From an uncultured Pseudomonadota bacterium (GTDB taxonomy: Bacteria > Pseudomonadota > Gammaproteobacteria > Steroidobacterales > Steroidobacteraceae): 64,000 bases of DNA. The stretch is from NCBI GenBank assembly GCA_903884105.1, contig CAISDJ010000082.1:1-64000 (forward strand), in the 5' to 3' direction. The position numbers were made by a program, and so were the translations under genes. Each line of letters opens with the position of its first letter. Within the stretch, counting starts at the first letter, position 1. Below are positions 5,869 through 13,696 of the stretch, piece by piece. The notes under the pieces were generated by a model. That model saw nothing but the letters and a program-made list of their open reading frames with translations. It was not told the origin of the DNA and made no database searches.

Positions 5869-7041
5869 TTACAGCACCGCGCGAGGATAGGACCCGAGGA
5901 TGCGGAACAGCGTTGCCTGCTCCTTCAGGTCGTGTAACACGGATTTCAGTGGCTCGGAATCGACGTGTCCTTCTGCATCGATGAAGAACACGTAGTCCCA
6001 TTTCTTGCGCTTCGAAGGACGCGACTCGATGCGGGTCAGGCTGATGCTGCGTCGGGCGAAAGGTTCGAGCAACCGGTACAACGCGCCCGGCGAGTCCGTA
6101 TCCCCTGCTGACACCATCAGTGTCGTGCGATCATTGCCACTCGGATTGAAGAGCTTGCGACCGACGACAAAGAACCGCGTGGTGTTGTCCGCCTGGTCCT
6201 CGATGTTCGGAACGATGATGGAAAGCCCGTACACCTCAGCGGCAGCTTGCCCTGCAATCGCGGCAGTGCCCGCCTCATCACGGGCGCGGCGTGCCCCTTC
6301 CGCATTGCTGTTCACGGAAATCCGTTCGATACCCGGCAGGTTCTCGTCCAGCCACGAACGGCATTGCGCCAGCGACTGCTGGTGCGAGCAGATCCGCTTC
6401 ACCTTGGAGAGGTCCTGGCCCTTCCCCATGAGATGCTGCTGGATCCTGAGTTCAATCTCGCCGCAGATCTTGAGCGGCGACGAGATGAACATGTCGAGCG
6501 TGTTGTTGACGGTGCCTTCAGTTGAATTCTCGATCGGCACGACACCAAAATCGGCGTTGCCGGCCTGGACTTCATGGAACACTTCGTTGATCGCGCCGAG
6601 CGGCAGCGCACGGACAGAATGACCGAAGTGCTTGAAAACGGCCTGCTGCGAGAAGGTGCCCTCGGGCCCGAGAAACGCAATCTTGAGAGGCTCCTGTTGC
6701 GCGAGGCAGGCAGACATGATCTCGCGAAAGAGCCGCACGACTTCCTCGTTGCGCAGCGGTCCCTTGTTGCGCTCGAGCACGGCGCGCAGCACCTGCGCCT
6801 CACGCTCGGGACGATAGAAGTCGACCGTCTTGCCCTCGGCATTCTTCGAGAGCCCGACCTTCTTCGCGAGACCCGCACGCTCGTTCAGCAGTGACTGGAT
6901 GCGCTCATCGACAGAATCGATCTGCTTGCGGATCTCCAGCAGGCCCGTGGTCCTTTCCGCCTGCTGCAGCACCACAGGCGCCGGCGACTTGGTCGCTTTC
7001 CGACCCGGGCGCGACTTTTCCTTGGGTGCCTTTCTGGTCAT
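5869..7041 (-). CDS. pheA: Bifunctional chorismate mutase / prephenate dehydratase
   Basis: Makes phenylpyruvate from chorismate in phenylalanine synthesis. It has 390 residues. An N-terminal AroQ chorismate mutase helix bundle (about 35-120, starting LLEIRKQIDSVDERIQSLLNE) is followed by prephenate dehydratase (about 120-300, FLGPEGTFSQQA, VVPIENSTEGTVNNTLD) and a C-terminal ACT domain with the feedback-binding SRPSKRKKWDYVFFID. The first 30 residues are an unusual Lys/Arg/Pro-rich extension ahead of the mutase domain. Its start overlaps the serA stop by 4 bp, so the two are translationally coupled. Confidence 0.95.
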   Translation of the reverse strand: MTRKAPKEKSRPGRKATKSPAPVVLQQAERTTGLLEIRKQIDSVDERIQSLLNERAGLAKKVGLSKNAEGKTVDFYRPEREAQVLRAVLERNKGPLRNEEVVRLFREIMSACLAQQEPLKIAFLGPEGTFSQQAVFKHFGHSVRALPLGAINEVFHEVQAGNADFGVVPIENSTEGTVNNTLDMFISSPLKICGEIELRIQQHLMGKGQDLSKVKRICSHQQSLAQCRSWLDENLPGIERISVNSNAEGARRARDEAGTAAIAGQAAAEVYGLSIIVPNIEDQADNTTRFFVVGRKLFNPSGNDRTTLMVSAGDTDSPGALYRLLEPFARRSISLTRIESRPSKRKKWDYVFFIDAEGHVDSEPLKSVLHDLKEQATLFRILGSYPRAVL

Positions 7042-8213
7042 GCCGGAATCACCGACACCGTCAACACGCCAGGAATCGCGCGGATTGCTGCGACCACCGC
7101 GGGTGGCACCTGCCCGTCGACATCAATCAGCGTGTACGCAAGGCCGCCGCGAGACTTGTTCAGCAGGTCTGCAATATTCAGGTTGGCAGCCGCGAGCGTG
7201 CCGGTGATCTGTCCCACCATATTGGGCACGTTCTCGTTGGCGATGCCGACACGCGTGGCGCCGATCGTGCGCGGCAGGACGGCCTCCGGGAAGTTGACCG
7301 AATTGCGCACATTGCCCGTCTCAAGAAACTCCCGCAGCGTGTCCGCCACCATGATGGCGCAATTTTCTTCGGCTTCCTCGGTCGAGGCGCCGAGATGCGG
7401 CAGGGCAATGACCTTCGGATGATCCTTGCAGGCGTTGGTCGGAAAATCGCAGATGTAGCTGGCGATCTTGCCGGCATTGAGCGCATCGATCATTGCCGCT
7501 TCGTCGACGATACCGCCTCGGGCGAAATTCAGAATGACCCCGCTCGGCTTCATGAGCTTGAGGCGGGCCGCATTCACCATGGCCTTTGTCGCTTCCACCA
7601 GGGGGACATGCACAGTGATCATGTCGGCCCGCGAGAAGAGATCATCCAGCGACAGTGCCTGCTCGACACCTGACGAGAGCTGCCATGCGCGCTGCACGGT
7701 AATCTGCGGATCGAAACCCAGCACGCGCATGCCGAGTCCGTGGGCCGCATTGGCGACTTCCACGCCGATCGCGCCGAGCCCAACGACGCCGAGCGTCTTG
7801 CCGGGCAGTTCATAGCCGACATATTTCTTCTTGCCCTTCTCCACCGCCTCTTCCAGCGCATGGTCATCGCCCTCCAGGCCACGCACGTACTGCCATGCCT
7901 GGCAGACATTGCGGGCCGCAAGGAACATGCCGGCAATCACGAGTTCCTTCACTGCGTTGGCATTCGCACCCGGAGCATTGAACACTGGAATGCCCTGCTT
8001 CGACAGCTTGGCAACGGGAATGTTGTTGGTACCTGCACCGGCCCTGCCGATGGCGCGCACGGACGCCGGCAACACCATTTCATGCATGTCTGCAGACCGG
8101 ACCATGACCGCGTCGGGATGGCCGATATCCGAGGCCACCTCGAATCGATCACGCGGCAGGCGCTCAAGGCCCCGCACGGAGATATTGTTCAGCGTCTGGA
8201 TCTTGAATGGCAT
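7038..8213 (-). CDS. serA: D-3-phosphoglycerate dehydrogenase with ACT domain
   Basis: First step of serine synthesis. It has 391 residues: split substrate-binding domain, Rossmann domain with GVVGLGAIGVEVA, catalytic Arg in NFARGGIVDE, catalytic His in PHLGAST, and a C-terminal ACT domain (about 320-391). The position of the usual catalytic Glu reads CDFPTN, a variant I recognise from a compact SerA subfamily rather than a lesion. In pseudomonads serC, not serA, occupies this place next to pheA, so the first serine-pathway gene seems to have replaced the second in this cluster. Confidence 0.9.
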   Translation of the reverse strand: MPFKIQTLNNISVRGLERLPRDRFEVASDIGHPDAVMVRSADMHEMVLPASVRAIGRAGAGTNNIPVAKLSKQGIPVFNAPGANANAVKELVIAGMFLAARNVCQAWQYVRGLEGDDHALEEAVEKGKKKYVGYELPGKTLGVVGLGAIGVEVANAAHGLGMRVLGFDPQITVQRAWQLSSGVEQALSLDDLFSRADMITVHVPLVEATKAMVNAARLKLMKPSGVILNFARGGIVDEAAMIDALNAGKIASYICDFPTNACKDHPKVIALPHLGASTEEAEENCAIMVADTLREFLETGNVRNSVNFPEAVLPRTIGATRVGIANENVPNMVGQITGTLAAANLNIADLLNKSRGGLAYTLIDVDGQVPPAVVAAIRAIPGVLTVSVIPA

Positions 8214-8248: not shown

Positions 8249-10834
<2,586 letters not shown>

Positions 10835-11011
10835 ATTCTCGACTGCCAGGCCGCTGGGTCAGGAATGCAACAGCCCCCAAGGCCCTTGTCATGACCCGCT
10901 GTTCTTATGCTGTAGGGTGCAGACCCAAAGACCTAACTTGGGCCTGCGCATTTAAGTGAGGAATGGTACCACAGGAAGCCCGTTCGCCGAACTTCCATGA
11001 GGCCCCCGCGG

Positions 11012-11017
11012 TATACT
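11012..11017 (+). promoter_or_regulatory. Candidate -10 box for the MtaD-like/ubiG operon
   Basis: TATACT lies 26 bp before the ATG at 11044 in the gyrA-divergent gap. A transcript starting about 7 bp downstream would have a leader of roughly 20 nt. No good -35 hexamer is seen at 16-18 bp spacing, so the assignment is tentative. Confidence 0.35.
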
Positions 11018-11043
11018 CGCGCGAGCCGTAATCCAAACTCCCG

Positions 11044-12300
11044 ATGGAATCCGTCGATACACTCATCAACGCTCGCTGGGTGATCCCGATCGAGCCCGCG
11101 ACCAGCGTGCTGGAGCGGCATGCTGTTGCCATTCACCAAGGTCGGATCGTCGCGATCCTGCCTGCGGACGAGGCGGCCCGGCGGTACTCCGCACACGAAG
11201 TCCTGGACCGGCCCACCCATGCCCTTTTCCCCGGGCTCGTCAATGCATGTGCGGACGTCGGGACGCCTGCGGTGATGGCCGTCGATAACGGTTCCCCGGC
11301 CGGACCCTGGATGGATCCGGAGCGGGTCCGCGATACCGTGGAACTGGCCATGGCCAGGATGCTGGCTGGCGGCACAACGAGCTTTGCCGCCACCAGCCAG
11401 TTCCCGCAAATCGTTGCCCGGACGGCCGCCGACCTGCGCGTTCGCGCGTGCGTCGGCCTGCCGGTCCTCGAGCGGCCGACCGACTGGGCGGGCAGCGTCG
11501 ACGAATACCTGGAGAAAGCGGCGGCGCTGCACGACGACTACAGCGAGGACCCGCTGATCACGACAGCCTTCGCCACGAGTGACCCGTCGCACCTCACCGA
11601 CGAAACCCTGCAGCGCCTGCGACGGGCGGCCGATGAAATCGAACTGCCTATCCTGGTCCCGTTGCACGAACGCGAGCTTGCGGTAGCCCTGGCCGTAGAG
11701 CGTCTCGGTACCCGGCCTCTTGAGAGGCTCGAGAACCTCGGGCTGGCGACGCCGCAACTGGTCGGGCTCCACGCGACGGACCTGTCTGCATCGGATATCG
11801 ATATTCTCGCGCGCGCCGGGATGCACGTGATCGCGTGTCCCCGCACCAGCCTCCGCGGTGGAGGCATTCCCTGCCCAGTGGTCGGTCTCGACCATCGGCA
11901 CGTCAACGTCGGCTTTGGGACGGGCGATCAATCCAGTCTGGACCTGCAGGGGGAACTCCATCTCGCGAGCCTGCTTGGAGACCGCGATGCGTCCACGAGC
12001 CCCGTCCTGTCACCCCATCACGCCCTGCGGATGGCGACGCTGGGCGGCGCTCGCGCGCTAGGCCTGGCGGACACAACGGGATCGCTGCTCCCCGGCAAGT
12101 GGGCGGACCTGTGCTGTCTCGACCTGTCTCTGCTGCGAACCCAACCCGTGCGGGACGTTGTCAGTCAGATCGTGCGCCTCGCCGGCGCGGATCAGATATC
12201 CGACGTCTGGGTGGCCGGACGCGCCCTGATCGTGGCTGGCAGCTTTGTCCGTCTCGATTGCGCAGCCATCCTTGAGCGCGCTGCCCGCTGGCCTGCATGA
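11044..12300 (+). CDS. MtaD-like amidohydrolase, apparently catalytically dead
   Basis: Homologue of the 5'-methylthioadenosine/S-adenosylhomocysteine deaminases (TRZ/ATZ amidohydrolases), 418 residues and full length. The fold markers are kept: FPGLVNA (residue 62 on), AGGTTSFA, LGGARALGLADTTGSLLPGKWADLCCLDL. The metal site is largely lost. The HxH after strand 1 reads C69-A-D71; the strand 5 His is P206 (in VPLHERE); H243 of strand 6 is kept; the HCP motif reads ACP at 264; and the strand 8 Asp in GTDG reads GTGD at 292-295. In pseudomonads mtnA sits between gyrA and mtaD; here it is absent. The gene overlaps ubiG (ATGA), so it may persist for a structural or translational-coupling role. 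Confidence 0.85.
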   Translation: MESVDTLINARWVIPIEPATSVLERHAVAIHQGRIVAILPADEAARRYSAHEVLDRPTHALFPGLVNACADVGTPAVMAVDNGSPAGPWMDPERVRDTVELAMARMLAGGTTSFAATSQFPQIVARTAADLRVRACVGLPVLERPTDWAGSVDEYLEKAAALHDDYSEDPLITTAFATSDPSHLTDETLQRLRRAADEIELPILVPLHERELAVALAVERLGTRPLERLENLGLATPQLVGLHATDLSASDIDILARAGMHVIACPRTSLRGGGIPCPVVGLDHRHVNVGFGTGDQSSLDLQGELHLASLLGDRDASTSPVLSPHHALRMATLGGARALGLADTTGSLLPGKWADLCCLDLSLLRTQPVRDVVSQIVRLAGADQISDVWVAGRALIVAGSFVRLDCAAILERAARWPA

Positions 12301-13019
12301 ACAAGGCTGCCATGACCCACGACCCCGCTGAAATTGCCCGCTTCGAATCCACGGCGGCACGCTGGTGGGATCCCGAGGGAGAATTCCGGCCCCTCCATGA
12401 CCTCAATCCCGTCCGCCTCGCATTCATAGAGCAGCGCGCTCCGCTCGCGGGCCTCAAGGTCCTCGACGTCGGGTGTGGTGGCGGTTTGTTGAGCGAGGCC
12501 ATGGCCCGTCGTGGTGCCGAAGTCACCGGCATCGATCTTGGAAAGACAGCCATCGAGGTCGCGTCGTTGCATGCCCTCGAGGCTGGCGTGAAGGTGTGGT
12601 ATCGGGTGGAGTCAGCAGACGCCCACGTAGTCGCCAATGCCGGCACCTACGACGTCGTGACGTGCCTCGAAATGCTCGAGCACGTGCCCGAACCCGAGCA
12701 GATCATCGCGACATTGGCCAGCCTGGTCAGGCCGGGCGGCCACCTGTTCATGTCGACGCTGAACCGCACGCTGAAGGCTTACCTGCTTGCCATCGTGGGG
12801 GCCGAATACATTGCAAGGTTGCTCCCCAAGGGCACGCATACCTACGAACGCTTCATTCGTCCCGCCGAACTCGCAACCTGGTGCAGGTCAGCCGGTATCG
12901 ACGTGCGTGATCTGGCTGGCATCGAGTACCACCCGCTTGCACGGACCGCCCGACTGGTCACCGGCGTCGACACCAACTACATCATGCACGGCACTCGCAA
13001 CGAGGCGAACCCGGCGTGA
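12297..13019 (+). CDS. ubiG: Ubiquinone biosynthesis O-methyltransferase
   Basis: SAM-dependent methyltransferase that performs both O-methylations of ubiquinone synthesis. It has 240 residues. It has the N-terminal FESTAARWWDPEGEFRPLHD typical of UbiG, the SAM-binding motif VLDVGCGGGLLSEAMA at about 55-70, the acidic loop VTGIDLG, and EMLEHVP. Its start overlaps the MtaD-like stop and its stop overlaps the next start (GTGA), so the run is a translationally coupled operon. Confidence 0.95.
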   Translation: MNKAAMTHDPAEIARFESTAARWWDPEGEFRPLHDLNPVRLAFIEQRAPLAGLKVLDVGCGGGLLSEAMARRGAEVTGIDLGKTAIEVASLHALEAGVKVWYRVESADAHVVANAGTYDVVTCLEMLEHVPEPEQIIATLASLVRPGGHLFMSTLNRTLKAYLLAIVGAEYIARLLPKGTHTYERFIRPAELATWCRSAGIDVRDLAGIEYHPLARTARLVTGVDTNYIMHGTRNEANPA

Positions 13020-13696
13020 CTCGGCTGACTGCACTGCTCCTCGACCTCGACGGCACACTGCTCGATACGGCGCCGGAAATGGCCGCAGCCCTGAACATCC
13101 TGCGTGACGAAGAGCACCTCGCCCCTTTGCCTTTCCACCTGATCAGGCCCACCGTTTCCCATGGGTCGACCGGAATGCTCAACCTGGGATTCGGTGGCGT
13201 GACGGCGATGGAGTTCGAACGCCTGCGCGTGCGCTTTCTCGACATCTACCGCGCCAAGCTCGGCAGCAATACCCGCCTGTTCGACGGCTTTGATGCGGTA
13301 TTGGAGCACGTGAGCCAGAATGGCCTCGCGTGGGGTGTCGTGACCAACAAGCCCGGCTGGCTGACCGACCCCCTGCTGCAAATGATGCACATCACGCCGA
13401 CCAATGCCTGCATCGTCAGCGGCGATACCGTCGGTGAGCGCAAGCCGCATCCTTTGCCACTTCTGCATGCCGCCGGCCTGATTTCCAGGGAGCCCGCACA
13501 GTGCTTGTATGTCGGCGACGCCGAACGCGACATCACTGCCGGCCGCGCAGCAGGCATGACGACCGTCGTCGCTGGATGGGGATATCTGGGCAGCACCGAT
13601 GATCCCGCCAGTTGGCGCGCCGATGGCCTGGTCGCAGAGCCGATCGGGCTCGTTCCCTGGCTACACCCCAACCAGCCTCGAGTGGCCACCTCATGA
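13016..13696 (+). CDS. mupP: HAD phosphatase, MupP type
   Basis: HAD-superfamily phosphatase of 226 residues. The nucleophile motif DLDGTLLDT (Asp10, Asp12), motif II Thr in VTNKPG, and motif III/IV YVGDAERDITAGRAAGM are intact. In pseudomonads the enzyme at this place dephosphorylates N-acetylmuramic acid 6-phosphate in peptidoglycan recycling; phosphoglycolate phosphatase (Gph) is the close alternative. The position directly after ubiG favours MupP. Starts with GTG overlapping the ubiG stop. Confidence 0.85.
   Translation: MTRLTALLLDLDGTLLDTAPEMAAALNILRDEEHLAPLPFHLIRPTVSHGSTGMLNLGFGGVTAMEFERLRVRFLDIYRAKLGSNTRLFDGFDAVLEHVSQNGLAWGVVTNKPGWLTDPLLQMMHITPTNACIVSGDTVGERKPHPLPLLHAAGLISREPAQCLYVGDAERDITAGRAAGMTTVVAGWGYLGSTDDPASWRADGLVAEPIGLVPWLHPNQPRVATS

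Follow-up and report, generated by a model that had tools for sequence, protein, structure and literature searches.

The window, a 64,000-nucleotide stretch of DNA from an uncultured member of the Steroidobacteraceae, carries an MtaD-like gene of the amidohydrolase superfamily at 11044..12300 (+ strand; 418 codons plus stop). The slot it occupies is marked by its divergent neighbour gyrA (8249..10834, - strand). Downstream are the methyltransferase gene ubiG (12297..13019, + strand), whose name derives from a preliminary description of this DNA together with gene order and whose domain was assigned by Pfam, and a HAD-like (gph-like) hydrolase gene (13016..13696, + strand). The preliminary description of a frame open for all 418 residues and overlapping ubiG was borne out from the sequence, the last four bases of the MtaD-like gene also being the first four of ubiG, which starts at 12297. 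An open frame alone is weak evidence here because the genome is GC-rich and another frame, antisense to gyrA, stays open for 851 codons. No Rfam family matched at gathering scores in the window, and a scan of 10780-12400 for promoters and terminators found none.

The same four-base overlap is present in the congener (G001) and in G065, G128 and G145; elsewhere, gaps of up to 153 bases separate the MtaD-like gene from ubiG. Among 43 outgroup loci tested (30 from the class and 13 from the order), whose copies were picked without regard to gene order, 35 have ubiG in the fetched flank. Linkage to ubiG is therefore ancestral, and adjacency at the window locus is no sign of a new partnership with UbiG. 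A second ubiG-like gene occurs in G155 and G161, with 46% and 47% identity to the window UbiG, respectively. The window genome (G000; 3.73 Mb, completeness 99.29%) yields 11 amidohydrolase matches, the MtaD-like gene itself included. A search of this genome for another mtaD returned no close copy; a close second MtaD was rejected because the next best match to the window protein is only 31% identical (E 1.9e-10).

Metal site, pocket and predicted fold

In mononuclear amidohydrolase deaminases, the metal is held by an HxH pair, a strand-5 His and a strand-8 Asp. Alignment of the window protein with MtaD relatives and solved structures placed four changed residues on these ligand columns. C69 and D71 occupy the HxH place of strand 1 (codons 69-71, 11248..11256; this and the following codons are on the + strand). 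At the strand-5 HxHE place (codons 206-209, 11659..11670), P206 replaces the ligand while H208 and E209 are kept, and at the strand-8 Asp place G294 is followed by D295 in the motif GTGD (codons 294-295, 11923..11928). The strand-6 His, H243 (codon 243, 11770..11772), is kept. The preliminary description had counted four of five ligands as altered. Its residue assignments (C69, D71, P206, H243 and the GTGD motif) hold, but we take H243 and E209, the Glu of HxxE, to be catalytic residues rather than ligands, so that the count becomes four of four. By this alignment, the window protein has lost every metal ligand and kept two catalytic residues, E209 and H243.

Other changes accompany those at the ligand columns. 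Alignment with relatives indicates that D116, S268 and N269 (the SN pair) and the His of the strand-4 FAPH motif are also replaced, and the loop after strand 1 (codons 76-92, 11269..11319) is about 12 residues shorter than in 4dzh and canonical copies. The congener has lost three of the four ligand columns; D71, P206 and G294 are common to both species, and these losses therefore predate their split. An assembly error in the window is unlikely, since the congener has three of the four same losses and other clades share theirs. Across intact and outgroup copies, 54 positions are conserved, of which 16 are kept by fewer than 60% of the 24 most degraded copies. These 16 include the four ligands, E209, D116, S268 and N269, and the poorly kept positions appear to line the pocket. 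At the remaining 38, the residue is retained in no fewer than 60% of these copies, and at many it is retained in all 24 (among them R134, D164, T332, G351, K352, A354, D355 and G392).

The window protein scores 111.1 bits against PF01979 (Amidohydro_1), above the curated cut-off of 25, and 377.6 bits against NF006549, a TRZ/ATZ hydrolase model that is the MtaD equivalog, below the curated cut-off of 540. The mononuclear metal site of MtaD (HxH, strand-5 His and strand-8 Asp) is lacking. By sequence, the closest solved structures are 4dzh, 4dyk, 4gbd, 4f0r and 3lnp, most of which are titled adenosine deaminases with bound zinc. Structure prediction gave a model with pLDDT of 91.5 and pTM of 0.92, in which only residues 76-86, within the shortened loop, fall below 50. 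Compared through this model with VIA, the protein matches 4dzh with Z of 58.1 and rmsd of 1.4 over 418 residues; Foldseek also ranks 4dzh first. The barrel plus beta-sandwich of MtaD is present in the model, and the window fold is confidently predicted to be a copy of MtaD. An independently degraded g7-type copy (L092) was predicted with pLDDT of 89.7 and pTM of 0.92, values that, as for the window protein, speak to compatibility with the fold and not to stability because the input alignments of both include intact relatives.

Distribution and site loss among relatives

A search of 160 Steroidobacteraceae genomes located ubiG in 145, and we analysed 142 loci, comprising 140 fetched loci plus those of the window genome and its congener, with G024, G120 and G170 left out. 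An MtaD-like gene lies between gyrA and ubiG in 57 of the 142 and is absent from 80, with five not settled. In the 80 genomes without the gene, which form 18 maximal clades on the species tree, gyrA and ubiG are adjacent and 31-403 bases apart (median 123). Any retained role is therefore dispensable in many relatives. Among the 57 copies, four ligands are kept in 21, three in 12 and two or fewer in 24; one or more ligands are thus missing from 36, and two or more from 24. Such losses are spread over 9 of the 14 gene-bearing genera. Many of the genomes are drafts, and some of the single-ligand cases may be errors or substitutions that the protein tolerates. The reading frame is uninterrupted in 56 of the 57 slot copies. 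The exception, G034 (L163, about 6503-7977), has intact ligands and a frame break near the C-terminus, with the last 59 residues in another frame about 100 bases on.

The replacements differ among lineages. HxR replaces the strand-1 pair in g2, g5, g22 and most of g18, three g19 copies have Pro or Gln on strand 5, and near-complete loss of the site is seen in g14 and parts of g7. Five related g4 copies (L104, L105, L107, L110 and L112) have Gly at the strand-8 Asp with a short gap after it; among degraded sets, ML omega is also lowest in this one. In the g14 copies (L194, L232 and L233), the HxH positions are occupied by Glu and Asp, and the strand-5 and strand-6 motifs have disappeared. These copies are very divergent, with a branch length of 1.02 changes per column; in the MtaD tree, the window genus also sits on a long branch (0.71 changes per column).

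Outside the family, the site is uniformly intact in the copies examined. Of 185 genomes of the class, 134 gave a match to a canonical copy, and all 90 of the 134 that were examined (the best 30, the next 20 and 40 lower ones including the weakest match), which come from other families, retain four ligands. The same holds for all 13 copies taken from other families in the order. Ligand loss in 36 of 57 versus 0 of 90 copies gives a Fisher p of 8e-20, uncorrected for relatedness. On a gyrA plus ubiG tree (FastTree), with loss taken as irreversible, the degraded copies form 13 maximal all-degraded clades. A MtaD tree built with the site columns left out requires 11 changes, or 8 when only copies with two or fewer ligands are counted as degraded, and placing all 36 degraded copies in one clade was rejected (p-AU 2.04e-07). 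We estimate about 11-13 separate losses in Steroidobacteraceae, an approximate number, since certain forks are weakly supported and some of the single-ligand losses called in draft genomes may be errors.

The preliminary description had also drawn attention to a missing mtnA. Searches of the whole window genome gave no match for mtnA with TIGR00512, mtnP with TIGR01694 or mtnN with TIGR01704; ahcY is present. Given this combination, no obvious route for disposing of MTA can be seen in the window genome. One Pseudomonas study describes deamination of MTA followed by phosphorolysis (PMC6302742). Absence of mtnA is confirmed but carries no weight as an explanation. Counting a partial below-cut-off match in G092, mtnA is present alongside 8 of the 21 intact copies and 11 of the 36 degraded ones (Fisher p 0.57), several genomes being incomplete. 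For mtnP the figures are 7 of 21 and 7 of 36 (p 0.34), a count that includes partial below-cut-off matches in G061 and G134 and omits a weak one in G066 (87 bits). Lack of mtnA or mtnP as the cause of ligand loss was rejected, there being no association among the 57 copies.

Constraint on degraded copies

Between the two species of the window genus, 418 codons have diverged without indels to a dS of 0.89. The pS is 0.52 and the pN 0.145 (Fisher p about 1e-39, from rounded values), and NG86 omega is 0.18, far from 1. Neutral simulation at a divergence of 0.89 produced a mean of 3.9 or 7.1 stops, depending on base composition, and zero stops in at most 1.5% of runs; none is observed. The window gene is not simply decaying. 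ML omega in six other all-degraded sets was 0.083 (five g4 copies), 0.148 (g2), 0.204 and 0.175 (two g7 sets), 0.151 (g14) and 0.157 (four g18 copies), and in five intact sets 0.089-0.136. A ubiG ML omega of 0.008 for the intact g19 set, with a tree length of 28.9, is an artefact.

Pairwise NG86 omega is high in the degraded pairs G113/G091 (0.60), G033/G072 (0.45) and G007/G097 (0.38), and spans 0.108-0.254 in six intact pairs. In the same three degraded pairs ubiG omega is also raised (0.335, 0.321 and 0.262, respectively), and synonymous change is depressed because third positions are about 90% GC. The nonsynonymous rate relative to ubiG has a median of about 1.4 in 14 degraded pairs versus about 1.0 in 6 intact pairs (p 0.04), the ratios (medians about 1.44 and 0.96) coming from 20 pairs that are not independent. 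Constraint on degraded copies is present but milder than on intact ones.

These data bear on an explanation by relaxed selection toward deletion, under which deamination is unneeded, the active site drifts first and the gene is finally deleted, with any residual constraint reflecting only the cost of toxic misfolding or the recency of the loss. Deletion in 18 maximal species-tree clades (80 of 142 genomes), the faster change of degraded copies relative to ubiG and the several degraded pairs with NG86 omega of 0.3-0.6 are as this explanation would have it. It accounts poorly for the low ML omega of all six degraded sets, for the window genus (omega 0.18, with no indels at dS 0.89), for open frames in 56 of 57 copies and for scaffold positions kept in 24 of the 24 most degraded copies. 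We regard relaxation alone as rather unlikely, though deserving of serious consideration.

Interpretation and known systems

On balance, we read the window protein as a recurrent pseudoenzyme in which catalysis has been lost and the fold is selected for another role, a view we hold with moderate confidence. Judging from the lost site, catalysis is very likely absent; a selected non-catalytic role is probable. The preliminary description had arrived at selection for something other than deamination, and the omega of 0.18 without indels, the six degraded sets at 0.083-0.204 and the predicted intact fold support it in this. Like other pseudoenzymes, the protein is an enzyme homologue without the conserved catalytic residues, with E209 and H243 still kept, and it is conserved by selection rather than decaying, under a constraint milder than that on intact copies.

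Conceivably, the window genus instead has a rewired metalloenzyme, its site moved to C/H69, D71, H208, E209, H243 and D295 and its reaction either the same or new. D71, H208, E209, H243 and D295 are identical in both species, and position 69 carries either Cys or His, residues that often bind zinc. Identity between the two proteins rises to 90% in strand 5 and 89% in strand 6 versus 75% overall, and a review describes migrated catalytic residues in some pseudoenzymes (PMC10211241). H208, E209 and H243 are ancestral, however, which leaves only D71 and D295 as new, and identity is low in strands 8 and 4 (55% each) and in the loop that follows strand 1 (35%). Such a site would also not cover g14 or part of g18, both of which lack these residues. 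We consider it improbable. A gene that serves only as a translated leader, coupling translation of ubiG through the four-base overlap seen in the window and four other genomes, is highly implausible, since coupling keeps a frame open and not the amino acids, which are constrained here, and since gaps reach 153 bases elsewhere and 80 genomes do without the gene.

If the window protein is indeed a pseudoenzyme, its ubiG-linked MtaD ancestor probably combined deamination with a second role, either structural or in binding a ligand. Within Steroidobacteraceae, deamination would have become dispensable and been lost many times; purifying selection for the second role would have maintained the scaffold in some lineages, and others would have discarded the gene altogether. 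The catalytic metal would no longer be held in the ancestral way, and the protein would be kept for its non-catalytic role. That the selected role existed in the ancestral enzyme is probable because loss recurs in a gene that, in the window genome, has no close second copy. The likeliest role may be that of a protein partner to a neighbouring or pathway enzyme. With the two genes remaining neighbours, UbiG comes first among the candidates; this is a guess based on gene order, and we regard it as doubtful. More speculative still is the broader proposal that the ubiG-linked MtaD of Gammaproteobacteria is two-functional, with an old non-catalytic constraint, probably in support of UbiG or a ubiquinone-making complex, that some 11-13 site losses with the scaffold kept have exposed. 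If true, the same hidden function would be carried by intact MtaD of other bacteria. The window gene also provides a warning for annotation, as it still matches deaminase and amidohydrolase models. Among the matches listed, titles and abstract openings in the open-licence literature contain no degraded MtaD-like proteins and no role for MtaD with UbiG.

The window protein resembles MtaD (4dzh, 4dyk, 4gbd and 4f0r; NF006549) in the full-length fold of its predicted model (Z 56-58), in 36-40% identity to these chains and in its place before ubiG, as in most outgroup loci. It differs in the replacement of all four ligands, the FAPH His, D116 and the SN pair, and in its shorter loop after strand 1. 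The nearest precedent in the superfamily is the Pseudomonas pseudo-dihydroorotase (pDHO, PyrC'), which is reported to be inactive and needed for ATCase activity (PMC7053772). As an inactive homologue that supports aspartate transcarbamoylase, pDHO offers an analogy for the role proposed here. It belongs to another subfamily and has a known partner, whereas the window protein has a candidate partner, UbiG, suggested by gene adjacency; moreover, the MtaD-like loss recurs within one family in which many relatives have no gene. CRMP and dihydropyrimidinase-like proteins are amidohydrolase folds thought to act via protein contacts without a catalytic metal. These are animal proteins of another subfamily. 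The best-known pseudoenzymes tend to be old and fixed, either paralogues or domains that sit next to an active copy. In the present case, by contrast, the gene keeps to one operon slot, the window genome shows no close second copy of it, and within a single family the metal site has apparently been lost again and again, with intact relatives and clean deletions alongside the degraded copies. Relatives thus form a series running from all four ligands, through none, to absence of the gene, along which a non-catalytic function hidden in a metabolic enzyme becomes testable, including in cultured Steroidobacter.
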